Both the position numbers and the translations under genes were made by a program. Under the pieces are notes generated by a model that saw nothing but the letters and a program-made list of their open reading frames with translations, was not told the origin of the DNA and searched no databases. This document shows positions 6,736 through 21,127 of a stretch of DNA of 64,000 nt, one piece after another; the first letter of the stretch is position 1; every line of letters starts with the position of its first letter. The DNA comes from Pseudovibrio exalbescens DSM 16456 (lineage in GTDB: Bacteria; Pseudomonadota; Alphaproteobacteria; Rhizobiales; Stappiaceae), in NCBI RefSeq assembly GCF_000422785.1, contig NZ_AUGS01000010.1, positions 62,001 through 126,000 on the forward strand, written 5' to 3'.

Positions 6736-9700
6736 TGGCTGCAGAAAAGCGTATAGATCCCTGCCACAAAGGTGCTGGGAAACGGTTCTACTCGATCTCT
6801 GTAGCCATGTTTGCGGCGTTGCTGAGTGGAACCGCGCTCGCGACGGCAAGCGAAGAAGCGCAGTTGGCGGCTCAGGGGTTTTCGATTTCAATGGAAGCTC
6901 CCGGTACGGCGACCTCAGAAAATTCACCCGCACAGATCTCGGAGCCGGTCAAATTGGGCCCGCCTGCAAAGGTTCAGGTAAACTATAAGGGCATCAACCC
7001 GGTCCGCAGTCTTCGCACGTTTGTTCGTTCCGAAGCGCCAGCTTACAAGCCGGGTGCCACAATCACAATCACGACCGAGAGCAATTATCCTGCTTTCATC
7101 CAGCGGGCTGAGCTGCGTGTACTGAAAAGCGGCGGTCGTGGTGATGAACTGTTGGAAACGCTAGTCGCACCCGTCAATGGCAGCGTTGATTGGGTGTTGC
7201 CTGAGCTGGAAAATACGGCGCTCACTTATGTGTTTCGTGTCTATGACGAACAAGGTCGCTATGACGAAACCTTTGCTCGCCCTTTTTTTTCGGAAGAAGC
7301 AGCGTTTGAAACAAGTGAGCTCCCGAATTCTGTAAATACCGCCATGATGCCGGGCGTCGAGCCGGGAACGATCCGTCAGCGTTACATTCCCATTGAAGGT
7401 GGCGTGGTAGCGGTTTCTGGTCGTGCCGACCCTGATCAACCTGTAAAAGTCATGGGAGAAACGGTGCCAGTCGATGACCAAGGCGAGTTCTCTGTAACTC
7501 GAAATTTGCCGGTGGGAACGGCACTGGTCGAGGTGGACTTCAGCTCTCAAGGTGAAGCCAAGTCGATTATCCGGCCCGTCGAGATTCCGGCGTCTCAGTG
7601 GCACTATGTGGGCATCATCGATATTACTGCAGGTCATCGCCTGCAGGATGATCAAGCTGAAAACACGCCCGACTTTGAGCGGAACTATGTAGACGGACGC
7701 GCTGCCTACTACATTTCTGGAAAAACAGGGAACGGGTGGGCCATTACCTCATCAGCAGATACGGGTGAGGGCGATATCGAGGATATTTTCCGCCGACTGG
7801 ACGAGAAAGATCCCGAAGCAATTTTGGATCGGCTTTCCGATGATGATCTTTATCCAACCTATGGCGATGACAGCAGCAGCTACGATGATACGCCCACATC
7901 GGGTCGCGTTTACTTACGAGCCGAAAAAGGCGACACGAGCGCATTGTGGGGAGACTTCAAGGCGGACCTTTCCTCTGGCGGACTGATTAACAACACACGC
8001 GAACTTTACGGTGCCAAGGTGCGCACTGCCTTGCCATCCCGAACAAAAAGCGGCAAGGCGCGTTTGAGCGGTGTCGTTTACGCGGCTCAGCCAGATACAT
8101 TGCCCCAGACCGATATTCTCAGAGGAACCGGCGGCTCGATCTATTTCTTGTCCAGACAGGATGTAAATGGTCAGTCTGAGAATGTTACCGTCGAAGTGCT
8201 TGACCCAGATACAGGAAGGGTAATTGCAACGCGGTCACTTCAAGCTGGTGTCGATTACTCTCTTAATTATTTGCAGGGCGTAATTTCTCTTGCCGAGCCA
8301 TTGGGTTCAAGTTCCTCAATAGGCAGTCTGGTTCCATCGGCTGGTGGCGACTATGACGTAAACCTTGTTGTACAATATGAATACACCCCCGCTGTTCGTG
8401 ATGTGGACGGTTTCTCTTTGGGCGGGCGCGCTGAATCATGGCTGACTGATCACTTGCGATTGGGCGCAACCGGCATGAAAGAAGGGACGGGGACCGCTGA
8501 TCAGAAAATGTTCAGCACGGATCTGCGGGTTGAATGGGGAGAGCGAAGCTTTCTTGAGGCCGAGGTTGCGCAAACTGAGGGACCGGGTTTCGGTAGAACA
8601 GTTTCATCTGATGGCGGTCTAACCCTCACGGACGAAGCCGGTGCTGAGGGCGAGCGGGCCCGTGCGTACCGGGTTGATGGGTCTTTAGACTTTGAGGATT
8701 TTAACCTGCAGCAAAAAGGCACGGCGCGGTTTTATCTTGAAAGGATAGAGGCGGGCTTTGCCACACTGAACAGAACGGCTACGCATGATCAACTGCTTGT
8801 TGGCGGTGAAACATCGATTGATGTGTCCAGCGCGACTCGCTTGCGTATGGCCGCAGAAAACTACGAGGAAGACGGCGGGGATCGCAAGCGTAGCGCGGAG
8901 GTCATTGCGTCTCACAAGCTTTCTGAAAGCTGGAGCGTGGATGCCGGTGTTGAATATGAGGACAAAAAGACTCTAGGAGAGGAGGAAGAGACAGGTCGGC
9001 GGACTGATGTGAGTAGCCGATTGACTTATTCTGTCAACGATGACGCACGTGTCTGGTTACTAGGTCAAGTTACGGCGGATGTCACCGGCGGTCTTGATCG
9101 GGACGATCGCTACGGTGCCGGCGGTGAATGGCAGTTGAACGACAAATTGCTCGCGGCTGCGGAAGTTACAGAAGGAACAACCGGGCTCGGAGCGACGGGA
9201 CGGTTGACTTACAAGCAGACGGACGATCGTGAGATGTATGTGGGATATACGCTCGACCCAACACGCACGGTGGACGGTTATGATCTTATTGGCGAGGACA
9301 AGGGAAAGATTGTTGTTGGCGCCCGCACAAAGCATTCCGAAAAGCTGAGTTCATTTGGGGAGACGGCGTTTGACCTGTTTGGTGATCGGTACTCCTCCAC
9401 ACGAACTGTTGGCGCAACATATCAACCTTCCGAGCCGTGGAATTTCAGCGGATCCGTTGAGAGCGGGCTGGTTCGAGACCGTCATAACGGCGACATTGAT
9501 CGAGACGCCTTCTCCATTGGAGTGTCCTATAAAACCAAGGATAGCCTGAGCGCGCACTCTCGATTTGAATACCGTCGCGATCGCGGAGATGATCAGGATG
9601 AGGAAGCCGACACGTACGCTTTGAAAGCGGGCCTTGGGTACAGGGGTAATGAGAACGCGCGCCTTCTTGGGAGTGTTAATGCGCTCATCTCTGACAATTT

Positions 9701-10241
9701 GGGTAATAGCTTTCGCGATGGGGAGTATGTGAAAGCAACACTTGGCTATGCCATTCGCCCGACGTTGAGCGAGCAGTTCAACATGCTCTTCAAGTACTCG
9801 TACCTTCATGATCTTCCCGGCGCGGATCAAGTGACCGTCGATGGGTCAACGGAAGGGGACAAGCAAAAAAGCCATGTTATCTCGGTGGATGCTGACTATG
9901 ACTTGACGCAGCAACTGACACTGGGCGGTAAATACGGCTATCGCATTTCACAGGTCGCCGAGCGGGGGACTAATGATTTCGAGGATTCCTCCGCACATCT
10001 GGGCATATTGCGTCTGAACTGGCATGTCGTGAAAAACTGGGATGCCATGGTGGAGGGGCGCCTTCTGTATGGCGTTGAAACGGACACGGTTTCGACGGGC
10101 GCGCTTGCGGGCGTCTATCGCCACATCGGTGACCACCTCAAGGTCGGTGTCGGCTATGAATGGGGGACGGTCTCTGATGACCTGACAGATCTCAACTACA
10201 CCAACTCTGGTGTGTTCCTCAATCTGATCGCCAAGATGTAA
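6735..10241 (+). CDS. Predicted outer-membrane beta-barrel protein paired with DUF11 protein
   Basis: This 1,168-residue protein starts on the ATG that overlaps the upstream stop by one base. An N-terminal signal peptide (hydrophobic core near residues 22-37, ending 'GTALATA') directs export. Residues about 60-330 look like Ig-like or carboxypeptidase-regulatory-like beta modules. Around residues 480-530 is a segment ('GSIYFLSRQDVNG', 'AGVDYSLNYLQGVI') that I have only seen in surface-protein contexts. From about residue 560 to the end it is a run of short alternating polar/hydrophobic strands with acidic and aromatic residues, typical of an outer-membrane barrel of many strands. It ends in 'LIAKM' rather than the usual terminal Phe. 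The coupling suggests it anchors or secretes the DUF11 protein. I do not recognise a named family; the barrel call rests on pattern alone. Confidence 0.7.
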   Translation: MAAEKRIDPCHKGAGKRFYSISVAMFAALLSGTALATASEEAQLAAQGFSISMEAPGTATSENSPAQISEPVKLGPPAKVQVNYKGINPVRSLRTFVRSEAPAYKPGATITITTESNYPAFIQRAELRVLKSGGRGDELLETLVAPVNGSVDWVLPELENTALTYVFRVYDEQGRYDETFARPFFSEEAAFETSELPNSVNTAMMPGVEPGTIRQRYIPIEGGVVAVSGRADPDQPVKVMGETVPVDDQGEFSVTRNLPVGTALVEVDFSSQGEAKSIIRPVEIPASQWHYVGIIDITAGHRLQDDQAENTPDFERNYVDGRAAYYISGKTGNGWAITSSADTGEGDIEDIFRRLDEKDPEAILDRLSDDDLYPTYGDDSSSYDDTPTSGRVYLRAEKGDTSALWGDFKADLSSGGLINNTRELYGAKVRTALPSRTKSGKARLSGVVYAAQPDTLPQTDILRGTGGSIYFLSRQDVNGQSENVTVEVLDPDTGRVIATRSLQAGVDYSLNYLQGVISLAEPLGSSSSIGSLVPSAGGDYDVNLVVQYEYTPAVRDVDGFSLGGRAESWLTDHLRLGATGMKEGTGTADQKMFSTDLRVEWGERSFLEAEVAQTEGPGFGRTVSSDGGLTLTDEAGAEGERARAYRVDGSLDFEDFNLQQKGTARFYLERIEAGFATLNRTATHDQLLVGGETSIDVSSATRLRMAAENYEEDGGDRKRSAEVIASHKLSESWSVDAGVEYEDKKTLGEEEETGRRTDVSSRLTYSVNDDARVWLLGQVTADVTGGLDRDDRYGAGGEWQLNDKLLAAAEVTEGTTGLGATGRLTYKQTDDREMYVGYTLDPTRTVDGYDLIGEDKGKIVVGARTKHSEKLSSFGETAFDLFGDRYSSTRTVGATYQPSEPWNFSGSVESGLVRDRHNGDIDRDAFSIGVSYKTKDSLSAHSRFEYRRDRGDDQDEEADTYALKAGLGYRGNENARLLGSVNALISDNLGNSFRDGEYVKATLGYAIRPTLSEQFNMLFKYSYLHDLPGADQVTVDGSTEGDKQKSHVISVDADYDLTQQLTLGGKYGYRISQVAERGTNDFEDSSAHLGILRLNWHVVKNWDAMVEGRLLYGVETDTVSTGALAGVYRHIGDHLKVGVGYEWGTVSDDLTDLNYTNSGVFLNLIAKM

Positions 10242-10253
10242 TGGCGCTTCATG

Positions 10254-10291
10254 AAGAACGGTCGGCTCTCCAGTGTTTGTCGACCGTTCTT
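10254..10291 (+). terminator. Hairpin after the DUF11/barrel operon
   Basis: A perfect 11-bp inverted repeat (AAGAACGGTCG / CGACCGTTCTT) with a 16-nt loop begins 12 nt after the stop of the barrel gene. No long T tract follows, so it may be a weak or Rho-assisted terminator. Confidence 0.55.
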
Positions 10292-10312
10292 GCAACATGA
10301 CATTCTGAGTTA

Positions 10313-10335
10313 AATACAATTTTATATATTGTATT
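10313..10335. promoter_or_regulatory. AT-rich inverted repeat upstream of the araC-type gene
   Basis: The arms AATACAAT and ATTGTATT are perfect 8-bp inverted repeats separated by 7 A/T bases, ending 74 bp before the AraC-type regulator start. This could be an operator or part of its promoter. No factor can be assigned from sequence. Confidence 0.35.
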
Positions 10336-10409
10336 AACTATATGATAAGGCTAGAAGTTGTGGCGCCTGAGCTAGCTCTTTAATTCGCCTCAAAGACTGC
10401 CACACAAAA

Positions 10410-11426
10410 ATGTCTATGCCTTTGAATGATAGCTTTCATATGGTTTCGCAAAGCCAGCTTCAGCGTTTTGACTGGAGACAATGGCAGGCGTTTCATGAGC
10501 AAATTTCCGGGGACGTCATTTGCAGTGGTCCAAAACATGATCTTGCGGCCTTTGCTGGCGGTATCTCCGGTCTTTTCTTCAATGGCGTTGTTCTTGGTGA
10601 TCTGCGTGCCAATGCCCATTCCTTTCAACGCAGTACCCAACGCATTGGCAAAGATGGCATTAGCTTTTTCTATCTGCAGCATTTCCGGAAAGCGTTCGGC
10701 AGCCAGATAAAGGCATTCAAGGAAATTGACGATATTCGCTCCGGCGATCTGATTTTTCACGATCTCACAGTGCCTTTCGAAACCCATCACACTGATTTTG
10801 AGGTGAGCACTCTCGTTTTTCAAAGAGACATTTTGTCAGCCTATGTTGATGTCGATCGGGGGTATCCAAGTTTCCGGATTTCCAAGGAGAGGGCCGAACA
10901 TGGTTTGCTCGTTGGATTGATTGAAGAACTCCGGCGAACCGCTCCGCTTATGGACCGCAGAGCTGTATCGAGCGTATTACGTTGTCTGACGGAGCTCTTG
11001 GCAAACGTTCTGACGCCCACGTGCCACCAAACCCCTTTGGTGTCTGAAGAGGGGCGACATTTTCTTCAGATGCGGGCGGCTCACAAGCTTTTACAACAGC
11101 ACATCAGCGACCACACATTAAGCAGCACTGAGGTTGCGAAGGCGCTGGGGATTTCGCGCGCGACCGTCTATCGTTTGTTCGAGCCGCAAGGGGGGGTGAT
11201 GCAAACCCTGAAGCGTATGCGCCTCGCTAGGGCGCGCCAGATCCTTGTGGCACGGCCCACCCTAAGCATACAGCGGGTTGCAGAAACGTGTGGTTTCAAA
11301 AACGCTCACCATTTTTCTCGCGCCTTCAAGCAGGAGTTCGATAGCTCGCCTGGCGAATACAGAAAGCGTAGTGCAGCGAACGAGGGTGAAAGCGCGTCGC
11401 GCTATATCTCATGGGCACTGCGTTAG
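10410..11426 (+). CDS. AraC-family transcriptional regulator
   Basis: A 338-residue regulator. The C-terminal ~100 residues are a classic double helix-turn-helix AraC/XylS DNA-binding domain: 'STEVAKALGISRATVYRLF' then 'IQRVAETCGFKNAHHFSRAF', closing with the conserved 'SPGEYRK'. The N-terminal ~200 residues resemble an AraC-binding-2 type sensor domain, but the ligand is not predictable. There is no good ribosome-binding site before 10410; an in-frame ATG 6 bp later is an alternative start. It lies between the surface-protein operon and the AfsA-like module on the same strand and could control either. An inverted repeat lies about 75 bp upstream. Confidence 0.88.
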   Translation: MSMPLNDSFHMVSQSQLQRFDWRQWQAFHEQISGDVICSGPKHDLAAFAGGISGLFFNGVVLGDLRANAHSFQRSTQRIGKDGISFFYLQHFRKAFGSQIKAFKEIDDIRSGDLIFHDLTVPFETHHTDFEVSTLVFQRDILSAYVDVDRGYPSFRISKERAEHGLLVGLIEELRRTAPLMDRRAVSSVLRCLTELLANVLTPTCHQTPLVSEEGRHFLQMRAAHKLLQQHISDHTLSSTEVAKALGISRATVYRLFEPQGGVMQTLKRMRLARARQILVARPTLSIQRVAETCGFKNAHHFSRAFKQEFDSSPGEYRKRSAANEGESASRYISWALR

Positions 11427-11927
11427 CATTCGTATGTTTGCACTGGCTCATGGCCAGCGAAAGACATCAGCGCCCGATGGGTTGAAACAGTCGCAGCGAT
11501 GGCGTGGAAGGTACATTCCATTTTCATAATTGTGCCAATGGCTTCTTGATCCGGAGGTGTGAGATACTCCCTTCATGGCCTCAATGGAGCCTTCATTTTG
11601 CAGAGCGTCTCCACTGAATATGGCCTCAGGCCATAAATCACTTAGTCCTGCAAACGCAGCGCATCCAATCGAGAGTTTGGTAAAGTTTTCTCTACTTCTT
11701 TTTTGACATCGGCTCTGCCGCCGCGTCCGTATTTTGGAATCTCCGTTTTCAGAAACATACCAATGGTTTGGATGCCCATTAGAAGCGGTGTGGTAGATCG
11801 GCCGAGGGGAGCTTTCAGCTGCGGGCACACCTATAAATTGCTGATCGTAAAAATCCTTACAAAAACTTGTTACAATCTACATCTAACGTATGGTTGAAAT
11901 TTTCGATTTACGGAAAGGAGGCTAGCC
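11427..11927. other. Gene-free interval upstream of the AfsA-like operon
   Basis: About 500 bp without a convincing gene. Its right end holds the promoter and box listed separately. On the minus strand a short frame (about 11642-11779, 45 codons from an ATG, ending 'RLDALRLQD') has protein-like composition. It lacks a clear ribosome-binding site and I cannot support it as a gene; it might be a remnant. Nothing else stands out. Confidence 0.4.
11867..11894 (+). promoter_or_regulatory. Promoter with shared 16-bp box (copy 1), AfsA-like operon
   Basis: The box ATCTACATCTAACGTA (11875-11890) sits between a -35-like TTGTTA (11867-11872) and a -10-like TATGGT (11889-11894), 16 bp apart. The same box occurs before the MerR gene (13966-13981) and the MFS gene (14432-14447). 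Its core TAC-AT-NNN-AC-GTA is an imperfect inverted repeat. Binding within the -35/-10 spacer is the usual geometry for MerR-family regulators, so the linked MerR protein is the obvious candidate. A strong ribosome-binding site AAAGGAGG (11914-11921) follows. Confidence 0.65.
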
Positions 11928-12692
11928 ATGTTAGTTGTAGTTGGAAATCGTCTGACTGATTTTGCTCAGGCAACGGGTGCAGTAACTGCTCAGATGGCAA
12001 TTGAACGTTTGGCGCAGGACGAGCCAGGCGCAGGTTTTGTGATTGGTCAGGGAGTGGGTGACGAAGAAGCGCGCGTGATCCGTGTGCTGGGTCAGGCGAA
12101 AGGTGTGCCGATCATCAACTTCGAGCAGGATGGATTGCGAGCCGGACAGACGGTTTGCCACAAGCACCATCCGGAAAACCAACTTATTTCCATGCCACGC
12201 AAAGTTGATCAGGATGTGTTTGAGGCGGATCTCCTTATGGATGATCGGAATGAAATTATGTCCGATCACCTCACCGGATTGCACCTTCAGGGCATGTTGC
12301 TGATTGAAGCAACGCGGCAGATGTTCATTGCAGTTGGTGAAACTCAATACGCCCATTTGGGTGTGCCCCACGGGGGATATGTTGTCTTCAATCGACTGGA
12401 CACACGGTTCGAACAGTTTGCCTTTCCCATTTACTCGATGATCCGTCAAACAGTGACAGATGTAGACCAACCCCGTGATGATCGTACCAGTTTTTCGGCT
12501 GAAATCGAGATTTTCCAGGAACAGGGCCGGGTGGCGCATACCTCGGTGCAATATACAATTTTCGAGAGAGCATCGCTGAAACCGAAGGAAGAGAAACTGG
12601 CGCGCAAGGCCGTGGAGGCTGTTGTTACTCGCGCCGAGGAGAGTTTGGTGGATGAAAGAGCCACCCAATTTCCGGGGAGGGTCGCCGTATGA
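11928..12692 (+). CDS. AfsA-like hotdog protein (putative butyrolactone/butenolide synthase relative)
   Basis: A 254-residue protein with an excellent ribosome-binding site 6 nt before the ATG. Residues about 75-212 match the A-factor biosynthesis hotdog family (AfsA, PF03756): an entry motif 'CHKHH' (77-81) and the family helix 'DHLTG...GMLLIEATRQ' (D113, H114, E127, R130, Q131). In Streptomyces, AfsA joins a beta-ketoacyl-ACP to dihydroxyacetone phosphate, the first step of gamma-butyrolactone signal synthesis. AfsA itself has two hotdog repeats (~300 residues). Here only one is evident, preceded by a ~70-residue Rossmann-like segment ('GAVTAQMAIERLAQD', 'FVIGQGVGDEEARVI') and followed by a charged helix. 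It overlaps the phosphatase gene by 4 bp (ATGA). Family call good; substrate unknown. Confidence 0.8.
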   Translation: MLVVVGNRLTDFAQATGAVTAQMAIERLAQDEPGAGFVIGQGVGDEEARVIRVLGQAKGVPIINFEQDGLRAGQTVCHKHHPENQLISMPRKVDQDVFEADLLMDDRNEIMSDHLTGLHLQGMLLIEATRQMFIAVGETQYAHLGVPHGGYVVFNRLDTRFEQFAFPIYSMIRQTVTDVDQPRDDRTSFSAEIEIFQEQGRVAHTSVQYTIFERASLKPKEEKLARKAVEAVVTRAEESLVDERATQFPGRVAV

Positions 12693-13411
12693 CCCTGACA
12701 GATTTCGGCGTATCCAAACGCAAGCCCCATGCATTTGCTTTTTTTGATGTTGATGAGACACTGGTCGTTGAAAAGACCATGTTTACTGTGTTGGGTGCTT
12801 TGAGCGAGCGGCTCCCCTCTCTGGATGCAGCGTCTCTTATCTCTCATCTCCAGGATCTTAGACGGCAGGGCCGGAGCCGTGCTGAGGTCAATCGTGCCTT
12901 CTACAGAGGGTTGTGTGGGCTGCCGCGCGATGTCGTCGTGTCGATCGCGCGCACGTACATTCAAAGTCGCATTTCGGAAAGTGATAGGCGACCGTTTTTC
13001 ATAGCTGCGTGTGTTGCACAGCTCAAGGCATTGCGTCATCAGGGCGTGGCACCTGTTTTCGTGTCGGGATCTGCCTGCGATTTCCTTGCATCGATTGCTG
13101 AACATCTTAAGGTCGAGCATGTGCTCGCCACACGGTTGCAGGTTTCAGCAGCTGGTCGATACACAGGAGAGATTGACGGACGTTGCATGATTGGTGCGGG
13201 TAAGGCGTCGGCCGTTGCCGAGTTCCTGGCAGAGCATTCTATCGATCCGACACAATGCTTCGGATTTGGTGACCATCCTTCCGATGAGCCTTTTATCTCT
13301 TTGCTGGGTGCTGGGGCTATTGTAGCTGGAAATCCTGACACTGAGCGTTTGGCGCGCGAAAGAAACTGGGTTCTCATCGATAATGTTTCGTCCAGCAGCG
13401 AGGTGGCGTGA
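12689..13411 (+). CDS. HAD superfamily (IB/SerB-like) phosphatase
   Basis: A 240-residue HAD hydrolase with all four motifs: nucleophile D20 and acid D22 in 'FDVDETL', S126 in 'FVSGSA', K172 in 'GAGKA', and D195/D199 in 'GFGDHPSDEP'. The ~100-residue helical cap between motifs I and II fits subfamily IB (phosphoserine-phosphatase-like). The start overlaps the AfsA-like gene stop by 4 bp, implying coupled translation and a shared pathway. In the known butyrolactone route a phosphate from dihydroxyacetone phosphate must be removed, so this is a natural candidate for that step. That role is inference; other small phosphoesters are possible. Confidence 0.85.
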   Translation: MTLTDFGVSKRKPHAFAFFDVDETLVVEKTMFTVLGALSERLPSLDAASLISHLQDLRRQGRSRAEVNRAFYRGLCGLPRDVVVSIARTYIQSRISESDRRPFFIAACVAQLKALRHQGVAPVFVSGSACDFLASIAEHLKVEHVLATRLQVSAAGRYTGEIDGRCMIGAGKASAVAEFLAEHSIDPTQCFGFGDHPSDEPFISLLGAGAIVAGNPDTERLARERNWVLIDNVSSSSEVA

Positions 13412-13923
13412 TGGCGCGTTTGAGTGCGCAACTTCTGCCGCGTGCAGTGCTTCTCACAGGTCTTGCTGTTTGGCTGACAATCGCAGTGCTGAATAACGTC
13501 ACAGATTCTGGCACGAACATAATCCATCTTAACAGAATGTTGTCGATGAGGTTGCTGGCGGATGATCCGCTGTTTGGCAATGGTCTGGAGTGGCGGGCAT
13601 GGCAAACAGTCTCCGCGCAGACCATTCTTTATGTCGTCGTTGTCTGGCAGGTCCTTACAGCCTGCGCGTTATGGTTGGCAGCTTTCCGGATGATGGGGAC
13701 AGCTCTGAGCGGTGAAATGAATGATGCTGCTCTACGCTCGGCAAATCTGGCCCTGTCAATGTTCTTGGCGCTATGGCTTGTTTTCCTTTGTGGTGGACTT
13801 TGGTTCGGCTACTGGATGAAGCAAGGGCCTATTCAAGGTGTACATCTGACCCTAGTCATCATTTCCTTGCTGAGCCTGACTTATGTGAACCAGCCAACGC
13901 AGTGGTTGGACCGGAAATATTGA
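13411..13923 (+). CDS. DUF2165 small integral membrane protein
   Basis: About 170 residues with four predicted membrane helices (roughly 10-30, 68-90, 107-130, 138-155). The signature 'NVTDSGTNIIHLNRMLSM' followed by 'WRAWQTV' and 'VWQVLTA' matches DUF2165 (COG5472), whose function is unknown. The ATG overlaps the phosphatase stop (TGATG); a GTG one codon earlier is an alternative start. It is the third gene of a tightly coupled operon with the AfsA-like and HAD genes, so a role at the membrane in making, sensing or moving the operon's product is possible but unproven. Confidence 0.75.
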   Translation: MARLSAQLLPRAVLLTGLAVWLTIAVLNNVTDSGTNIIHLNRMLSMRLLADDPLFGNGLEWRAWQTVSAQTILYVVVVWQVLTACALWLAAFRMMGTALSGEMNDAALRSANLALSMFLALWLVFLCGGLWFGYWMKQGPIQGVHLTLVIISLLSLTYVNQPTQWLDRKY

Positions 13924-13942
13924 GCTGGATCCACGCCGGCAC

Positions 13943-13981
13943 TTGACACGGCAGCAAGAGACAATATCTTCATCTTACGTT
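13943..13981 (+). promoter_or_regulatory. Promoter of merR-type gene with shared box (copy 2)
   Basis: TTGACA (13943-13948) is a perfect -35. A -10-like TATCTT (13965-13970) follows at 16 bp and overlaps the left end of the box ATCTTCATCTTACGTT (13966-13981), which differs from the other two copies at the outer T and at one central base. Overlap of the box with the -10 would suit autorepression. The start codon of the MerR gene is 13 bp downstream. Confidence 0.6.
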
Positions 13982-13994
13982 AGAAAGGGAAGAT

Positions 13995-14396
13995 ATGTCG
14001 AACCAGCTCATGAAGATCGGCGAGCTTGCCAAGCGGGCCGGGGTCAGTCATCGCACGGTGCACTACTATGAAAACCGTGGCCTGATTTCCCCGGTCTCCC
14101 GTGAGGAAGGGAGCCACCGCATGTATGAGGAAGAGGCATTGCAGCGCCTCGAGAAAATTGCAGCCCTAAAACGACTGGGCCTGTCCCTTGAGGAAATAGC
14201 TGACGTAATCGACCTATATTTCCAGTCGAGCGGGGGAATGCTCGATGGCAAGAAGAAAGTGATCGACATCCTCAAGGCGCAATTGAAGAAGGTGGATGAT
14301 CAGATTGACGAACTGTCAGATTTTCGCAGCGATTTGATCCGAAACATTCGTCATATGGAGCGGCTCTATGAGGAGGCGCTACCTTCCAAAACCTAG
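13995..14396 (+). CDS. MerR-family transcriptional regulator
   Basis: A 133-residue protein with the N-terminal winged helix-turn-helix of MerR regulators ('MKIGELAKRAGVSHRTVHYYE', 'SHRMYEEEAL', 'LKRLGLSLEEI') and a C-terminal antiparallel coiled-coil helix ('DILKAQLKKVDDQIDEL'). It has no cysteine, so it is not a metal-thiolate sensor. It probably has only a minimal or no ligand domain, like the short organic-ligand-type members. It sits between the AfsA-like operon and the MFS exporter, and a common box lies before all three units, so it probably controls the whole module including itself. A good ribosome-binding site (AAAGGGA) precedes the ATG. Confidence 0.9.
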   Translation: MSNQLMKIGELAKRAGVSHRTVHYYENRGLISPVSREEGSHRMYEEEALQRLEKIAALKRLGLSLEEIADVIDLYFQSSGGMLDGKKKVIDILKAQLKKVDDQIDELSDFRSDLIRNIRHMERLYEEALPSKT

Positions 14397-14422
14397 GTAC
14401 AACTGGGCATACGTGCCCAATT

Positions 14423-14451
14423 TTGACTTAAATCTACATCTCACGTAAGGA
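14423..14451 (+). promoter_or_regulatory. Promoter of MFS gene with shared box (copy 3)
   Basis: TTGACT (14423-14428) and TAAGGA (14446-14451) are 17 bp apart and bracket ATCTACATCTCACGTA (14432-14447), which differs from copy 1 at a single base. The box position relative to the -10 is the same as for the AfsA-like operon. The ribosome-binding site AAGGA overlaps the right end. Confidence 0.62.
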
Positions 14452-14457
14452 ATAGAA

Positions 14458-15621
14458 ATGTCGCGTTCCAATGTGTTGATGGCCCTTTTGATGCTTACGG
14501 GCATTCTAGTTGTGGGTCAGCTTTATCTGACTATTCCAATGATTAGCGCCATAGCCGCTGAGTTTTCGGCAAGTAACAGCGCTGCGAGCTGGGCAGGAAC
14601 AGCCTTTGGGTTCGCTTATGCCTGCGGCTTTCTCGTGTTTGGGCCCCTTTCGGACCGCATAGGCCGTCGCGTCGTGTTGGTTTATGGGTTGCTTGCAGTC
14701 GCCATAGCGAGCTTTGGGCTGAGTTTTACCTCGCAAATCTCGGTGTTCCTCGGTGGCCGGGCGGTGCAGGGCTTTCTTGCCGCCAGTTTCCCGCCTGTCG
14801 CGCTCTCTGTCATTGCTGAGGCTTTGCCGCTTGAAAAACGTGCCTTTGGCATTTCGCTGATGAGCTTTGCATTTCTCGTGGCCGCGCCGCTTTCACAGTT
14901 CTTCGGTGCTGGAGTGCCGCAATCGCCAACGTCGATCATGTTCATGTTGTCTCCTTTTTATGTCGTGATGGCTTTGGCATTGTTTGTTGTTGTGCCCAAA
15001 GACCAGCCTGCATTGAGGCCAACGGGCGGAAAGCCCCACAGCCACCTAAGCGAAATGCTTGCCAATGGTCTGGTCTCAACCGGTTGGTTTGCGGCCTTGA
15101 CGGTGCTGTTGGGGTTTGTGGCGTTTCAGGTTGGTACTGTCCTGTTGACGCAGGAGGCTGATTTGAGCGCACAAACAGTCCGTCTGGCCGGATTGCCCCC
15201 GCTTGCGCTCAGCCTTTTTGCTGCCGTGATGTCGAAGCGCCTGACACCCGCAGTGACGGGTCGTGTAGGTATGATTGTCACCGCGTTGGGTCTGGGCATA
15301 GCCATTGTTCCCGGTGCGTTGATTGCCGCCTCTGTGATTGTCTCCAGTGGCGTCGCTTTGGCAGTTCCAGGCCTCATTGCAACAATCGCTGGCGCGGCCA
15401 AAGACCATAACAGAGGGCTGGCAATGTCCATCTACACCTTCTGTTTGTTCGTTGGGGCAAGTATCGCGCCGCCCCTGACCCTTACTCTGTTCAAGTTCGG
15501 AGCGCTGGCTGTGTTTGGTCTGCCTGCTGCTCTTCTGGTGACAGCCGTAGTGATTGTAACGCTGGCTGTATCTCGCCGCGCCAAGTCCGTTTCCATGCAA
15601 CCTGCTACAGGAGAACAGTGA
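14458..15621 (+). CDS. MFS transporter (drug/metabolite exporter type)
   Basis: A 387-residue major facilitator with 12 predicted membrane helices. The loop after helix 2 carries motif A ('GPLSDRIGRRVVLVYG'). A hydrophobic 'GRAVQGFLAASFPPVAL' helix 4 resembles the drug/H+ antiporter 12-TM group. It is an inner-membrane, proton-driven exporter by family; the substrate is not predictable. It shares its promoter box with the AfsA-like operon and MerR gene, so it may export, or protect against, the product of that pathway. The stop is followed after one base by the next gene. Confidence 0.85.
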   Translation: MSRSNVLMALLMLTGILVVGQLYLTIPMISAIAAEFSASNSAASWAGTAFGFAYACGFLVFGPLSDRIGRRVVLVYGLLAVAIASFGLSFTSQISVFLGGRAVQGFLAASFPPVALSVIAEALPLEKRAFGISLMSFAFLVAAPLSQFFGAGVPQSPTSIMFMLSPFYVVMALALFVVVPKDQPALRPTGGKPHSHLSEMLANGLVSTGWFAALTVLLGFVAFQVGTVLLTQEADLSAQTVRLAGLPPLALSLFAAVMSKRLTPAVTGRVGMIVTALGLGIAIVPGALIAASVIVSSGVALAVPGLIATIAGAAKDHNRGLAMSIYTFCLFVGASIAPPLTLTLFKFGALAVFGLPAALLVTAVVIVTLAVSRRAKSVSMQPATGEQ

Positions 15622-15622
15622 T

Positions 15623-16228
15623 ATGAAAACCGCAACCCTACTCGCTCTGCTATTTTTGAACGGTGAACTGCCGGAAAATTTTCGCACCGTCGGCGAGGCC
15701 GATGTTTTGGCGGATGGCATTCCTGTGACCATTACGCGTGCTGAGCGTTCGGACGGCTTGAACGGTGGTATTGGCGGTGAGCACATTTCGCAGGCTGTAT
15801 CGGACAGTGGGAAATTGCTTGGCTATGTGCGCATGACGCGTGAGATGGCGCAGCCTGCGGACTTGCCCGATGAAGAAACGGCGCACCGTGTTGCCATGGA
15901 CGTCTTGCGTCAACACGCGCCGGATCTTTTGGAGGCCCATAAAGTGCATTGGATTGCCCCTCATGATGAGTCCATTACGGTGATGGAGAATGGTAAGCCC
16001 AAGAAACTGGTATTGACGGGTATGAAAGTCAAAATGCGAGCGACCACACCTGACAAGCTTTGGTTCTGGGTTATTGTTGGGCCCAATGAACAAGTAATGG
16101 TGTTCGAGCGCGACATCTACTGGGTTACTCTTCCGGGACATCGGCGTACTGAAAAGTGGCTTCACGACAATTGGTTGAGTGAGCATCCTGAAGTGGTTTC
16201 CCGTTTGCGTGAGGCTGCGGATAGCTGA
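15623..16228 (+). CDS. Uncharacterised protein co-transcribed with MFS exporter
   Basis: A 201-residue protein I do not recognise. It starts one base after the MFS stop with a ribosome-binding site (AGGAGAAC) inside the MFS gene, so it is surely in that operon. The first ~12 residues are hydrophobic, but the segment is short and lacks a clear signal cleavage site. The rest is soluble-looking, mixed alpha/beta, with a strand-rich middle ('KKLVLTGMKVKMRAT', 'KLWFWVIVGPNEQVMVF') and a helical C-terminus. There is no cysteine and no catalytic motif I can name. It is a candidate accessory or ligand-binding component of the AfsA-like module. Confidence 0.75.
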   Translation: MKTATLLALLFLNGELPENFRTVGEADVLADGIPVTITRAERSDGLNGGIGGEHISQAVSDSGKLLGYVRMTREMAQPADLPDEETAHRVAMDVLRQHAPDLLEAHKVHWIAPHDESITVMENGKPKKLVLTGMKVKMRATTPDKLWFWVIVGPNEQVMVFERDIYWVTLPGHRRTEKWLHDNWLSEHPEVVSRLREAADS

Positions 16229-16394
16229 ATATCAGCGCACTGTCTTCGCTCCCGCTGAGTGATCGGGCGCAAGGTGGGCCTGCCGGCGCGGTGCTAGGTA
16301 TGAATGCGCAACCGGCTGGCTCATCTCTTGATGCTTACTCGAACCACTGCCATACCAAAGGCTGTAACCTCAACAAGCCAATGGTAGGCAAGCA

Positions 16395-17279
16395 ATGACA
16401 AGCTCGGCAATTCTTGAAACTGCACCCGTTTCGGGCGTTTCCTTCGCAAAACTTAAAGCCGGAGACGGGCGGCAGGTTCTTGTGATTGAAAACGACCTAT
16501 CGCGAACTGTAATCGCCTTGAATGGCGCGCATGTGATGTCGTTCAGGCCCAAGGGTAAGCCGGATTTGCTTTGGATGTCGCCAAACAGCGAACTGAAGGA
16601 TGCCACGCCTATTCGTGGGGGCATTCCTTTGTGCTTGCCCTGGTTTGGTCCGGGCGTGGATGGCGCCCCATTGCATGGCTTTGCACGTATCGTGGATTGG
16701 GCTGTTTCGAAGGTGGCGACGCTGCCGGATGGCGGAACGACGGTCACGCTTGTCTTGCAAGATAGTGAAGTTTCACGCCAAGTGTGGGCTCATGCGTTCG
16801 CTGCGGAACTTGAAATCCAGTGTGACACGGAACTGACTGCAACGCTGAAATACACCAATACTGGGTCGGATGACCAAAAGGTTGAGTTTGCGTTTCACAC
16901 CTACTTCAATATCGGGGATGTAACACAGATCCGCATTGAAGGTTTGGATGGCTTGAAGGGCATAGATCGCTTGAACGAGGATGCGCCCATTCGTCAGGCG
17001 GGTATCAAAACCTTGAGCGGGGCGACGACCCATTTTTACTCTGGCATTCCCGACTGCCTTTACCTTGATAGCCCGAATGGTCGGATACGCATTGCAGGAA
17101 CACAGCAGTCTGCCATGGTTTGGAATCCCGGCTCCGCAGCCGCCAGTGTGGCGGATATGGGCCCGGGTGTAGAAGCAGAATTTGTTTGCGTTGAACGCGT
17201 CGATGCAATCGATACCGCTGTGACCTTGAAACCTGCACAGACTTATTCCGCCAACATGACCATCGGGTGGTGTGACTGA
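16395..17279 (+). CDS. D-hexose-6-phosphate mutarotase (YeaD family)
   Basis: A 294-residue member of the aldose 1-epimerase superfamily, glucose-6-phosphate 1-epimerase branch, which interconverts alpha and beta anomers of hexose 6-phosphates in the cytoplasm. Family landmarks are 'PIRGGIPLCLPWFGPG', 'LHGFAR' and the catalytic-histidine segment 'EFAFHTYFNIGD', with 'MVWNPG' and a late Glu region ('EFVCVERV') supplying the second catalytic residue. Length is normal. It stands alone between an unrelated operon and the sugar ABC operon; a strong terminator follows it, so it is not part of that operon. Confidence 0.88.
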   Translation: MTSSAILETAPVSGVSFAKLKAGDGRQVLVIENDLSRTVIALNGAHVMSFRPKGKPDLLWMSPNSELKDATPIRGGIPLCLPWFGPGVDGAPLHGFARIVDWAVSKVATLPDGGTTVTLVLQDSEVSRQVWAHAFAAELEIQCDTELTATLKYTNTGSDDQKVEFAFHTYFNIGDVTQIRIEGLDGLKGIDRLNEDAPIRQAGIKTLSGATTHFYSGIPDCLYLDSPNGRIRIAGTQQSAMVWNPGSAAASVADMGPGVEAEFVCVERVDAIDTAVTLKPAQTYSANMTIGWCD

Positions 17280-17363
17280 ACAATGGCGTTGCTGCGTCCT
17301 TTAAGAGCCCGCGGACTTGGTGATGGCGGTGGTTCTTGAAGTCGGTGTTTGGTGAGTTGGGTA

Positions 17364-17398
17364 AATCGCGCCGTTTTTCGACGGCGCGATTATTTTTT
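17364..17398 (+). terminator. Rho-independent terminator after the mutarotase gene
   Basis: A perfect 11-bp GC-rich stem (AATCGCGCCGT / ACGGCGCGATT) with a 6-nt loop is followed by a run of six T. It insulates the downstream ABC operon. Confidence 0.9.
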
Positions 17399-17511
17399 GC
17401 GGCACTCGCAGCCAAATCGGCACTCTTTTGAATTGTAAATAGTAAAAAATCATCTGAGACGAAATGTTACACCTTTTAAAATATATTACGGGTAGACGAC
17501 TCTGAAATTCA

Positions 17512-17531
17512 GAATACAATCGATTACATTC
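17512..17531. promoter_or_regulatory. LacI-type operator for the sugar ABC operon
   Basis: GAATACAATCGATTACATTC is a 20-bp imperfect palindrome (GAAT-NN-AATCGATT-NN-ATTC) with the central CG typical of LacI-family operators. It lies 16 bp before the first gene, directly upstream of the ribosome-binding site GGGAGG, where bound repressor would block transcription. The fifth gene of the operon encodes a LacI regulator, the likely binder. Confidence 0.6.
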
Positions 17532-17547
17532 TACCGGGAGGAATATT

Positions 17548-18573
17548 ATGACATCGATTCGTATCACGGCTTTGTTGGCTTCGGTTGCGTTTGCGTCGGG
17601 TTTAACAGCTGCGTCGGCCGCCGATTACAAGATCGGGCTATCCAACGGGTGGGTTGGTAGTGAATGGCGCACTCAAATGATTTCGGAAGCCGAAGACATG
17701 GCTGAGGCGTGGTCAGAACACGGCATCGAAGTGGATGTTGTGGTCCAGAGCGCGAATGTTGACGTCCCTGGTCAGGTTGCGCATGTTCGCAACTTCATCA
17801 ATGAAGGGGTTGATGCAATCATCATTAACCCAAATAGCCCTACCGCCTTCGATCCTGTATTCGCCCAAGCAAAAGCTCGCGGTATTTTGGTGATTGCAAC
17901 GGATGCTGAAGTTTCGTCACAAGACGCAATGTATGTGGGTATTGACCATAAGGCATATGCAGCTGGTACGGCTCGTTGGCTGGCCGAAACACTTGGTGGC
18001 AAGGGCTCTATCGTCGCGATTAACGGTGTGGCGGGGCATCCGGCCAATGAGATGCGGGTTGAGGGCTACCGGGAAGTTTTTGCAGAATACCCTGACCTCA
18101 AAGTGGTCAATGAAGTAAATGCGAACTGGGAACAGGCCCAAGGCCAGCAAGCGATGCAGAACATCTTGGCCACGTATCCCGATATTAACGGCGTATGGGT
18201 TCAAGATGGTATGGCCGCTGGGGCTTGGCGGGCCATAATGGACGCGAACAAGGCCGAAGACATCGCAGCGACCGGTGAGATCAGAAAGGACTTTCTCGAT
18301 ATTTGGGTTGAGAACGGTTTCACCTCTGCCGCATCCGTGAACCCTCCGGGCGTCATGGCCAGCGCATTGAACGTTGCTGTGAACCTCCTTGAAGGCAAAG
18401 AACTGAAAGAACCTGCTTCGGCTGGCAAATACGGCAACGCAATGTATTTGCCAATCCCCTTCATCGACGGCGACAATGTCGCTGAAGTGCATGCTGAACT
18501 TGAAGGCAAGCCTGGCTATTATTCTTACACCAGTTCCTTGTCGATCGACGAAACAGCTGAGCTTTTTAAGTAA
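17548..18573 (+). CDS. Sugar ABC transporter periplasmic binding protein (RbsB-like)
   Basis: A 341-residue periplasmic-binding-protein-1/RbsB-type protein with a signal peptide (residues 1-25, 'ASGLTAASAADY'). Features of the fold include 'YKIGLSNGWVGSEWR' at the start of domain 1, 'VDAIIINPNSPTAF', the hinge-proximal 'GIDHKAYAAG' and 'NGVWVQDGMAAG'. It delivers a sugar or polyol to the inner-membrane complex encoded just downstream. It is the first gene of the operon, follows a LacI-type operator, and is followed by an intercistronic hairpin that probably keeps its own mRNA level above that of the rest. The sugar cannot be read from sequence. Confidence 0.9.
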   Translation: MTSIRITALLASVAFASGLTAASAADYKIGLSNGWVGSEWRTQMISEAEDMAEAWSEHGIEVDVVVQSANVDVPGQVAHVRNFINEGVDAIIINPNSPTAFDPVFAQAKARGILVIATDAEVSSQDAMYVGIDHKAYAAGTARWLAETLGGKGSIVAINGVAGHPANEMRVEGYREVFAEYPDLKVVNEVNANWEQAQGQQAMQNILATYPDINGVWVQDGMAAGAWRAIMDANKAEDIAATGEIRKDFLDIWVENGFTSAASVNPPGVMASALNVAVNLLEGKELKEPASAGKYGNAMYLPIPFIDGDNVAEVHAELEGKPGYYSYTSSLSIDETAELFK

Positions 18574-18580
18574 ACCATGA

Positions 18581-18616
18581 GTTCAGGTGCGGCGTTAATC
18601 TATGCCGTACCTGAAC
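18581..18616 (+). other. Intercistronic hairpin between binding protein and ATPase genes
   Basis: GTTCAGGTGCGGC (18581-18593) pairs with GCCGTACCTGAAC (18604-18616), 13 bp with one G-U pair and a 10-nt loop. Such hairpins commonly stabilise the abundant binding-protein message or attenuate read-through. The hairpin buries a possible ATG at 18602, which argues for the later ATPase start at 18635. Confidence 0.7.
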
Positions 18617-18634
18617 CATGTTGCTGGGTTTCTC

Positions 18635-20146
18635 ATGTCAAAACTTGTATTGGATAACGTAAGCAAGTCTTACGGGCCGACACGTGCATTCAAAAATGGT
18701 GACTTTGCTCTACAGAGTGGCGAAGTACATGCGCTGATGGGAACAAACGGCTCGGGCAAGAGTACGCTTTGTAAGATTATTGCTGGCAGTGTAAAGCCCG
18801 ACACCGGTTCCATATTTCTGAATGATTGCCGCGTTCAGATTAACTCACCAAAGGATGCGCGCCGCCTTGGTATCGGAACGTTTTTTCAGGAACTGAGCTT
18901 GGCAAAAAACCGCAGCGTGGCTGAGAACATCTTTATCTCACACCTGCCCCTGAACAACTACGTCTTTATAGATAAAACAGCTCTGGAGATGAATGCAGAG
19001 TACTACATTGACATGGTGCGCGATGTCGCTGGTGACGATTTTACGGCGAAAGCCGTGGTTGGAGATTTGCGTGCTGACCAACAACAGCTTGTCGAAATCT
19101 TGAAGACCATAGCAACAGAAGCTCAGGTGTTGATTTTTGATGAGCCAACCTCCGCTCTCGACCGATCTCAGGTGGAACGCTTTTTTGAAATACTGCGAAA
19201 GCTGAAGGCGCAGGGGCGAGCGATCATTTTCATTTCGCACAGAATGGACGAGATTTTTGAAATCAGCGACCAACTGACGGTCATTCGCGATGGTGCAATC
19301 GTGGCTTCCAGGAAAAGAGAAGCTACCACTGCTCAGGAAGTAATTTCCTTGATGGTTGGAGAGCAGACAGATTTGGCTGATCCGACATCAACTTCGCACG
19401 ACGTTTCGCCGATTTCGGATGGACAGTTCGTTGTCACTGCACATGATCTGACCGGCGATGGTTTTTCGGAAGTTTCCTTTGAAGTGCGAGCGGGAGAAAT
19501 TCTTGGGTTCGGAGGACTTCACGGTCAAGGGCAGTCTGCTGTTTTGAGGGCTCTATTTGGTGCCAATGCCATAACGAGAGGCCAAATCCAGGTTGCCGGT
19601 GACAATTATGATGGACGTACACCCCGGGCCGCCATTCGGAACGGCTTTGCATATGTTTCTGGCAATCGTGTTCGAGATGGAGTGATCCAAGGGCGCAGTA
19701 TCTTCGAGAATACGATTCCAGTACATGCGTTCAAAAAACATATGTTGCTGTCCACTCCATCAAGATTATCTCGCCGCGCATTTGAGGCGCTTAATAAGCT
19801 GGCGACCAAATATCACTCCTTGTCGAGCTCCATAGGCTCCTTGTCAGGTGGCAACCAACAAAAGGTGGTGATCGCCAGATGGCTTATGGATACCCCGAGG
19901 GTGCTTCTGCTGGATGATCCGACAAAAGGGATCGATTTGTCCGCCAAGGCAGACTTGTTTGCGCTTATCCGCGAACTCGCCTCAGAAGGGCTGGGCATCA
20001 TTCTGTACTCTTCAGAGGACGCGGAACTGCTGAACAACTCGGACAGGATCCTTGTGTTTAACAGCGGGAGAGCTGTCCGCGAGTTGTCGGGTGAAAACCG
20101 TACGCGTTTCAATCTTTACGACGCAGCCTACGAGGTAGCGCAATGA
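18635..20146 (+). CDS. Sugar ABC transporter ATP-binding protein (RbsA/MglA-like)
   Basis: A tandem-domain ATPase of about 503 residues from the chosen start 'MSKLVLDNVSKSYG'. An ATG at 18602 would add 11 residues but lies in a hairpin. Domain 1 has a good Walker A ('GTNGSGKST'), a degenerate signature ('LRADQQQ') and Walker B ('VLIFDEPTSAL'). Domain 2 has a degenerate Walker A ('GGLHGQGQSAV') but a canonical signature ('LSGGNQQKV') and Walker B ('VLLLDDPTKGID'), the usual asymmetry of carbohydrate-uptake-2 transporters. It energises uptake with the two permeases that follow; its stop overlaps the first permease by 4 bp. Confidence 0.92.
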   Translation: MSKLVLDNVSKSYGPTRAFKNGDFALQSGEVHALMGTNGSGKSTLCKIIAGSVKPDTGSIFLNDCRVQINSPKDARRLGIGTFFQELSLAKNRSVAENIFISHLPLNNYVFIDKTALEMNAEYYIDMVRDVAGDDFTAKAVVGDLRADQQQLVEILKTIATEAQVLIFDEPTSALDRSQVERFFEILRKLKAQGRAIIFISHRMDEIFEISDQLTVIRDGAIVASRKREATTAQEVISLMVGEQTDLADPTSTSHDVSPISDGQFVVTAHDLTGDGFSEVSFEVRAGEILGFGGLHGQGQSAVLRALFGANAITRGQIQVAGDNYDGRTPRAAIRNGFAYVSGNRVRDGVIQGRSIFENTIPVHAFKKHMLLSTPSRLSRRAFEALNKLATKYHSLSSSIGSLSGGNQQKVVIARWLMDTPRVLLLDDPTKGIDLSAKADLFALIRELASEGLGIILYSSEDAELLNNSDRILVFNSGRAVRELSGENRTRFNLYDAAYEVAQ

Positions 20147-21126
20147 CAGTTGGAAAAGCACGTTCAAGGAGTATGTCGGTCAGAGTCCGGCAGGCATGCG
20201 CTACGTTCCCTTTTTTGCCAGCCTTGGTTATTTTGGCTGTCCTATTCATTCTGAACGGCATGTTTAACGCCAATAGTGTGTCTTTTCAGGGAATTAGCGG
20301 TTTATTCAGCACTTATCTTGGCTTGGTATTCTTGGCGGTCGGACAAACTTACGTCATCTATGCTGGCGATATCGACCTGTCAGCTGGGGCCATCCTTTCC
20401 TTGGTGAACGTCGTTATCATTACTCTGATGAACCGTTATGATGGCGGCGTACTATCAACACTCATGATTATGTCGATCGGAGTGTTTGTTGGTGCCGCGT
20501 GTGGTCTGTTTAACGGCTTGATCATTGCAGGTCTTCGTCTTCAGGCAATCGTTGCGAGTTTTGCCAGTTCCATTTTCTTCACCGGGGTAGCGCTTTACGT
20601 CTTGCCAGTCGCTGGTATGCCGGCTCCAATGATCTATTGGCAAACCTATTTTGGATCCATTTTTGGTATTCCTTTTGTGTTTTTCGTGTTGGGCGTGCTG
20701 CTGCTGCTGGTATTCCTGCTATCACGAACACAGGCCATTCTACACTTGTTGACTGTTGGTGATGATCAACAAGCGGCCTATCAGTCGGGCCTTCCAGTTA
20801 CCCGCATTCGTATTCGTGGCTACGTTGTTTGCGGTGTCTTCGCCAGCTTTGCAGCGTTCTGCTTGACTGGGGATACTGCAAGTGGAGACCCCTTGGTGGG
20901 CAGCGCCATGACCTTGTCATCAGTTGCAGCTGCAGTGTTGGGTGGTTCCATGTTGTCGGGTGGTTTTGGCACTGCATTGGGTTCTGTGTTCGGGGCGCTG
21001 ACGATCGGGTTGATTGGGAGCCTTGTCTACTTTGTTGGAACACCCGCCTCTTGGCAAAACCTAGTCCAGGGTTTGGCGATACTTGTTGCCTTGATGGTTG
21101 GAATTTTGATCAGCCGGAGGACTTAG
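20143..21126 (+). CDS. Sugar ABC transporter permease 1 (RbsC-like)
   Basis: A 327-residue inner-membrane permease of the BPD-transp-2 family with about 8-10 membrane helices. Typical motifs are 'YVIYAGDIDLSAGAILSLVNV' (trimmed in the family to G-x-DLS-G), 'GLFNGLIIAGLRLQAIVASFA' and the late glycine-rich 'VAAAVLGGSMLSGGFG'. It overlaps the ATPase by 4 bp and is followed after one base by a second, non-identical permease, so the channel is probably a heterodimer, as in many carbohydrate-uptake-2 systems with two permease genes. Confidence 0.9.
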   Translation: MTVGKARSRSMSVRVRQACATFPFLPALVILAVLFILNGMFNANSVSFQGISGLFSTYLGLVFLAVGQTYVIYAGDIDLSAGAILSLVNVVIITLMNRYDGGVLSTLMIMSIGVFVGAACGLFNGLIIAGLRLQAIVASFASSIFFTGVALYVLPVAGMPAPMIYWQTYFGSIFGIPFVFFVLGVLLLLVFLLSRTQAILHLLTVGDDQQAAYQSGLPVTRIRIRGYVVCGVFASFAAFCLTGDTASGDPLVGSAMTLSSVAAAVLGGSMLSGGFGTALGSVFGALTIGLIGSLVYFVGTPASWQNLVQGLAILVALMVGILISRRT

Positions 21127-21127
21127 G

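Follow-up and report, generated by a model that had tools for sequence, protein, structure and literature searches.

Outside Streptomyces, an AfsA-type gene is required for the killing of competitors by Ruegeria pomeroyi, and another belongs to the most strongly induced genes of Chromobacterium; a further one opens a row of six plus-strand genes at positions 11928-16228 of the window studied here, a 64,000-nucleotide stretch of the Pseudovibrio exalbescens DSM 16456 genome. In Streptomyces, AfsA condenses a beta-ketoacyl-acyl carrier protein with dihydroxyacetone phosphate, and later reduction and dephosphorylation steps give the gamma-butyrolactone hormones. A preliminary description of the window had named an AfsA-like gene, a HAD-IB phosphatase, a DUF2165 membrane protein, a MerR regulator, an MFS exporter and an unknown protein, and had suggested that they could make, export and sense a small signal. 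Every one of these genes was recovered at the same coordinates, and AfsA, a phosphatase of the kind that neighbors AfsA genes, the exporter and a dedicated regulator do form one conserved unit, the six genes co-occurring in seven genomes. We conclude that a small molecule resembling a butenolide or butyrolactone is probably made, sensed and exported by this cassette; the synthase-phosphatase-exporter-regulator part of the earlier suggestion thus stands, while the hormone role is less supported, given a regulator motif without excess elsewhere in the genome and loci that lack AfsA. All its genes stand together in a short stretch, and among the bacteria that carry it are cultured ones, a strain of Rhodobacter capsulatus being one of them. 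Since it is compact, has natural AfsA-bearing and AfsA-free versions and carries a predicted operator, synthesis, sensing and immunity should be separately testable with few constructs.

Conserved Linkage of the Six Genes

All six genes were found together in seven genomes, that of the window included, which come from Pseudovibrio, Salipiger, R. capsulatus and one further family; the preliminary description had asked whether the linkage is conserved among relatives, and it is. Searches of public genome contigs gave AfsA identities of 77% for P. exalbescens M63, 63% for Salipiger mucosus, 61% for R. capsulatus SP108 and 60% for P. stylochi, and each of these four relatives holds the complete set, with the MFS gene placed ahead of merR in P. 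stylochi. The other two genomes are G007 and G347, the latter from another family and with an AfsA identity of 36%. Five genes that flank the cassette in the window (AraC, aldose epimerase and three ABC genes) were unmatched in the loci of about 16.7 kb taken from the four named relatives. Linkage was all-or-none: among 11 other AfsA loci, six have the DUF2165, MerR, MFS and 201-amino-acid genes, and five have none of the four at E 1e-3 (R. pomeroyi, Streptomyces sp. YIM 121038, G020, G642 and G472; 13-19 kb). The HAD gene is present in four of these five.

The AfsA gene is patchily distributed, occurring in four of 16 genomes of the genus and five of 101 relatives, the fifth (G020) with the R. 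pomeroyi layout. Transfer between orders was considered and rejected as a conclusion from the tree, as a concatenated tree of five proteins from seven genomes follows taxonomy (Pseudovibrio together with support of 0.988, Salipiger and Rhodobacter on the opposite side); the patchiness may therefore reflect loss as well as transfer. At the S. mucosus locus (L008, 10051-10447 and 10534-11671) the match to merR is divided between two frames and that to the MFS gene is broken in two; a frameshift, a sequencing error or decay is possible.

Identity of the Cassette Proteins

The canonical AfsA protein has two hotdog parts. The window protein has a single one, preceded by a conserved N-terminal extension of about 75 amino acids, and the PF03756 profile, which the preliminary description had proposed for positions 11928-12692, was matched over positions 3-131 of 133 with an E value of 1.1e-16 and 61.5 bits, against a curated cut-off of 24. 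The 4.16-Mb genome gave no second match at E ≤ 0.001, and the profile is rare more widely: it was matched in three genomes among 385 in the class and in two among 398 in the phylum, counts that each include the genome of the window. An alignment of 11 relatives, all of the single-hotdog kind, left 20 invariant columns, among them D113, H114, H119, Q121, G122, E127, R130 and Q131, which may be catalytic. A sequence search of the PDB with this protein matched no structure.

The second protein matched PF12710 (E 1.3e-23) and TIGR01490 (104.4 bits, above the cut-off of 98.3), and the HAD catalytic motifs DVDET, VSGS and GDHPSD are all present. When it was compared by tblastn with 72,556 plasmids, a search covering plasmids and no chromosomes, nine records were matched at E ≤ 1e-12 (13 places altogether), eight of them from Streptomyces plasmids. 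Taking the best place in each record, an AfsA-family gene was found near the HAD relative in all nine, either adjacent (H22, H25 and H26), one gene away (H21, H23, H24, H27 and H28) or two genes away (H20). H21 and H23 are mmf loci, recognized by the MmyR and MmfR accessions in PMC6335953, and the HAD identity to the relatives in these two was 35.6 and 34.2%. Because all nine relatives stand near AfsA genes, the window protein belongs with the phosphatases of AfsA clusters, and both homology and gene neighborhood suggest that it may act on a butenolide phosphate.

The third protein matched PF09933 (E 3.6e-23); its gene starts with GTG and has an in-frame ATG at 13411. The AfsA and HAD genes overlap as ATGA, and the overlap of the HAD and DUF2165 genes is GTGA if the GTG start is taken and TGATG if the ATG is, so that the translational coupling of the first three genes proposed in the preliminary description can fairly be inferred.

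The regulator matched PF13411 (E 1.4e-20) and reached none of the metal or redox MerR equivalogs (ZntR, CueR, SoxR), the best score being 79.9 bits against the 143 required by a Zn-responsive model. Of 11 MerR sequences aligned for comparison, among them that of the window and one fragment, 10 contain no cysteine, which makes a usual metal or redox ligand unlikely. The transporter matched PF07690 (E 4.3e-39), and its best NCBIfam matches were drug-efflux families, all under their cut-offs.

The last protein, formerly described as unknown, can now be placed in a conserved family with a weak likeness to the YcdB/YcdC repeated domain. By itself it matched no Pfam family significantly (E was 0.088 for DUF6894 and 0.21 for DUF4901, the YcdB/YcdC domain). 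When 12 family members were scanned singly at a lax E ≤ 1, DUF4901 appeared in 10, at best with E 1.6e-5, and DUF6894 in six, at best with 0.0015. Clathrin, offered as a PDB relative of the family by a profile search at E 0.4-0.6, was rejected as a chance match. Judged by eye, the family members encoded in AfsA-free loci begin like proteins with a signal peptide, and the window protein begins with a short hydrophobic stretch; for this reason the protein is perhaps exported.

TABLE 1 Genes and operator-like sites of the cassette, in window coordinates.
Feature	Position	Strand	Remarks
AfsA-like (phosphorylated butenolide synthase-like) protein, 254 aa	11928..12692	+	PF03756 hotdog at residues 78-209
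HAD-IB phosphatase related to MmfP, 240 aa	12689..13411	+	PF12710, TIGR01490
DUF2165 small integral membrane protein, 171 aa	13408..13923	+	PF09933
MerR-family regulator, 133 aa	13995..14396	+	PF13411; no cysteine
MFS transporter, 387 aa	14458..15621	+	PF07690
201-aa protein of a conserved family	15623..16228	+	weakly YcdB/YcdC repeat-like; hydrophobic N-terminus
Operator-like motif TCTACATCTAACGTATG	11876..11892	+	upstream of afsA, score 22.6
Operator-like motif TCTTCATCTTACGTTAG	13967..13983	+	upstream of merR
Operator-like motif TCTACATCTCACGTAAG	14433..14449	+	upstream of MFS gene

A Shared Operator-Like Motif

A 17-base motif with the consensus TCTACAnnTnACGTnAG stands ahead of afsA, merR and the MFS gene in the window, where the best site apart from these three copies scored 11.7. 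The same motif precedes the corresponding genes in five further cassettes, six with the window, and in P. stylochi the 201-amino-acid gene, which stands apart, carries a copy of its own. The scoring matrix was built from 18 sites of these six cassettes, the window's included, and scores within them are therefore circular. Loci that did not contribute to the matrix provide independent sites: 20.3 before merR and 25.0 before the 201-amino-acid gene in L022, 17.4 before merR and 16.4 before the MFS gene in L049, and 17.9 before the MFS gene in L050.

Outside such loci the motif shows no excess. Across the 4.16-Mb genome, five matches with at most one mismatch were found (one in the reversed control), of which three are the cassette copies and two lie on another contig and have a broken ACGT core; with two mismatches there were 37 matches against 74 for the reversed control. 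Eight other genomes were scanned, and five had matches (G032, G035 and G347 had none). All seven of the zero-mismatch matches fell within a cassette or the MerR/201-amino-acid locus of G212, and the one-mismatch matches outside cassettes numbered 13 against 19 in the reversed control. Three of these outside sites were inspected (L076 and L077), and no cassette gene was found there.

By eye, a promoter-like sequence, TTGACA-N16-TATCTT, runs into TCTTCATCTTACGTTAG before merR, and similar TTGACA-N16/17-TATCTW-like sequences run into the motif before merR in several genomes. A scan of offsets in the afsA and MFS promoters brought out no single arrangement of promoter and motif. The cassette MerR is predicted to act at the shared motif, as either activator or repressor. 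The AraC gene at 10410 was also considered as the regulator of the cassette and was rejected, as it was not found in loci L007-L010. Just upstream of P. stylochi afsA, on the opposite strand (L009, 7523-7720), lies a second MerR-family match with 36% identity to the cassette MerR.

Loci Without AfsA

Among 385 genomes of the class, four were found to carry the 201-amino-acid gene, and among 87 of the family, six; both figures include the genome of the window. Two genomes, G032 and G035, carry MerR-MFS-201aa, and two others, G128 and G212, carry MerR and the 201-amino-acid gene; PF03756, a profile that does find the window gene, had no match in any of these four. The G212 locus (L022) lies at a contig end, where the 201-amino-acid match is split over two frames (338-866), and the genome is 81% complete, so the genes missing from it weigh less. 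MerR and the 201-amino-acid gene without a synthase look like protection or eavesdropping. A conjugative plasmid of Oligella ureolytica (L026, 6062-8522) bears a MarR gene followed by MFS and 201-amino-acid genes, a few kb from a predicted sul2.

What the Cassette May Do

The explanation we favor, and to which we give about an even chance, is a self-contained cassette that makes, senses, exports and protects against a butenolide of the AfsA type. Rather than a hormone governing genes throughout the genome, this would more likely be a bioactive or self-toxic compound that induces its own synthesis and against which the producer protects itself. From its family chemistry, the AfsA-like enzyme would join a beta-ketoacyl thioester to dihydroxyacetone phosphate, giving a phosphorylated 2-acyl butenolide, from which the co-translated HAD-IB protein, a relative of MmfP, would strip the phosphate. 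The product would be a 2-acyl-3-hydroxymethylbutenolide, which reduction by the host could turn into a butyrolactone; the unreduced form is suggested by the lack of a reductase in the cassette, where, in agreement with the preliminary description, no butenolide-phosphate reductase was found. Nor did the genome yield a match at 1e-5 to a query of the MmfH type, in a search that had no positive control and did not include BprA. No polyketide synthase adjoins the cassette in the stretch examined (6735-21126). Gene overlap and co-conservation suggest that the DUF2165 protein may act at the membrane in the same pathway. The cysteine-free MerR would sense the product or a near relative and, by binding one shared operator, control its own gene along with the operons for synthesis and export, and the MFS and 201-amino-acid proteins would expel the product and protect the cell. 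Since the motif is not in excess elsewhere in the genome, the only visible effect of the product through MerR would be on how it is itself made and exported. It is this restriction, together with the AfsA-free genomes that keep MerR with the 201-amino-acid gene, that leads us to favor a bioactive or self-toxic product over a hormone, and the two observations agree no less well with a product that is antagonistic or self-toxic than with a signal.

Several points weigh against this explanation. The AfsA-like protein falls far short of the ScbA/BarX equivalog NF041195 (20.7 bits against a cut-off of 200, over positions 8-146 of 290 only), and its N-terminal region is without a family match. The merR site of L050 scores 10.5, which is background level (an unrelated site there scores 11.5), the S. 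mucosus afsA site is weak at 12.5, and no motif scoring over 10 was found in L020, where all six genes are present, or in L021. Lack of motif excess outside the cassette leaves room for weaker MerR sites, and a signal acting through another receptor is possible. Neither DUF2165 nor the 201-amino-acid protein has an assigned function, and the YcdB/YcdC likeness is a weak lead; the MFS and 201-amino-acid genes, found with MarR on the Oligella plasmid, may be a general efflux pair. Finally, the enzyme chemistry, the MerR ligand and the activity of the product are all predicted from sequence.

A bolder and more tentative reading is a portable unit of chemical antagonism, in which the two enzymes would make an unreduced acyl-butenolide harmful to competitors, the cysteine-free MerR would sense it in place of a TetR-type receptor and the exporter and YcdB-like 201-amino-acid protein would give immunity; the AfsA-free genomes, with MerR, the 201-amino-acid gene and in some cases the exporter, would then be immune listeners.

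Somewhat doubtful is a gamma-butyrolactone-type quorum signal, made by AfsA and HAD with the help of a host reductase, exported by the MFS protein and received by MerR as an autoinducing receptor. Missing reductase genes would be no bar to it, since MmfL is reported to be enough by itself to give functional signals in S. coelicolor (PMC6335953), and in Chromobacterium subtsugae no cluster is up-regulated more strongly at late stage and high density than the AfsA-HAD-DUF2165 operon (PMC12114271). Although synthase and exporter carry the operator-like motif of the regulator, as in autoinduction, the lack of motif excess elsewhere means that no downstream regulon is visible; the cassette is also without a TetR receptor, and AfsA-free genomes retain MerR and the 201-amino-acid gene, two of them with the exporter as well.

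We consider it unlikely that MerR-MFS-201aa is a general drug-efflux module standing by chance beside the biosynthetic triad and functionally unlinked to its product. Such a module would account for the Oligella plasmid and for MerR-MFS-201aa and MerR-201aa without AfsA, but not readily for a triad promoter that shares the merR/MFS motif in six cassettes, weakly in one, nor for the linkage of six genes in seven genomes. Least probable is a thioesterase- or dehydratase-like hotdog that, with HAD and the membrane protein DUF2165, processes a lipid or membrane metabolite, for even though the 254-amino-acid protein has a single hotdog stretch, scores below the ScbA/BarX cut-off and found no solved structure by sequence, PF03756 is matched above cut-off over nearly its whole length, the plasmid relatives of the HAD protein were all found in AfsA clusters, and R. 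pomeroyi depends for its diffusible killing activity on a related protein with 32% identity (PMC7426152).

Flanking Genes

Base composition gives no sign of an island, with a GC content of 0.48-0.56 over 6000-22000. Upstream, a 1168-amino-acid protein (6735-10241) has weak beta-barrel matches (OMP_b-brl at 7.8e-06, below cut-off) and directly follows an open reading frame for 2229 amino acids (46-6735), one base being common to both; the two are perhaps a large surface or outer-membrane pair. Next comes an AraC-type regulator (10410-11426), for which FeaR was the top NCBIfam model (E 4e-32, under its cut-off). Downstream (16395-21126) are an aldose-1-epimerase-like gene and ABC uptake genes for a periplasmic binding protein, an ATPase and a permease, which do not travel with the cassette in the loci of the four named relatives; relatives of the epimerase at E ≤ 1e-20 were found in three of 16 genomes of the genus, the window's included.

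Comparison With Known Systems

Compared with the Streptomyces systems, the cassette has one hotdog, no reductase and a MerR regulator in place of a TetR-family (ScbR/ArpA) receptor. The methylenomycin furan genes mmfL-mmfH-mmfP with mmfR/mmyR share an AfsA-family synthase and a related HAD phosphatase with it, but have a ScbA/BarX-annotated synthase, the MmfH reductase and TetR-family regulators, and the cassette is without such a reductase or receptor. A proteobacterial PF03756 domain is known from the PBS of gladiostatin in Burkholderia gladioli, for which condensation with dihydroxyacetone phosphate was demonstrated in vitro, an m/z of 213.11 being given for the 3-ketooctanoyl product; putative phosphatases are encoded in that cluster, but the domain is fused to a polyketide synthase, unlike that of the cassette (PMC7756379).

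The SPOA0342 cluster of R. pomeroyi DSS-3 shares AfsA (32% identity, E 2.7e-30) and HAD-IB (38%, E 5.2e-42) with the window and has an MFS gene nearby. Mutants there showed that genes of the AfsA cluster are required for diffusible killing and immunity, the afsA mutation affected 21 genes, 10 of them inside the cluster, and the authors leave undecided whether the molecule is an antimicrobial or toxin or a signal (PMC7426152). The partners differ, being SPOA0341, SPOA0343, a tautomerase, an aldo/keto reductase and LysR; the window DUF2165, MerR, MFS and 201-amino-acid proteins had no match at E 1e-3 in the 18.7-kb R. pomeroyi locus, and blastp found no SPOA0341 or SPOA0343 homolog among 11 window proteins (best E 0.30). 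The R. pomeroyi layout recurs in G020 and in Streptomyces sp. YIM 121038. In two proteobacterial loci (L042 and L043, from G642 and G472), AfsA genes stand near what by eye are sensor-kinase-like and GGDEF/EAL-like genes, a layout that resembles neither the window nor R. pomeroyi.

Two butyrolactone clusters were counted when 21 isolates of Pseudovibrio were surveyed (PMC5563371), and in the open PMC literature, as far as covered, we found no published description of the six-gene alphaproteobacterial cassette. The AfsA-HAD-DUF2165 triad is already in print for C. subtsugae, where, going by the published description, U6115_04630-04665 has the three genes in the same order, with a regulator and an efflux system after them (hypothetical, AfsA, HAD-IB, DUF2165, MarR, OprM, HlyD, MFS; the cdeAB-oprM region). 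All eight genes are strongly up-regulated together from 9 to 18 h as a co-expressed operon, for which an A-factor-like role was suggested (PMC12114271), and cdeR has been called a repressor of cdeAB-oprM in Chromobacterium (PMC7240160). That system differs from the cassette in having MarR rather than MerR, a tripartite pump rather than a single MFS protein and an extra upstream gene, and in belonging to another class. What is new here is the shared motif, the company that the HAD phosphatase keeps in AfsA clusters, the weak YcdB/YcdC likeness and the AfsA-free MerR/201-amino-acid loci.

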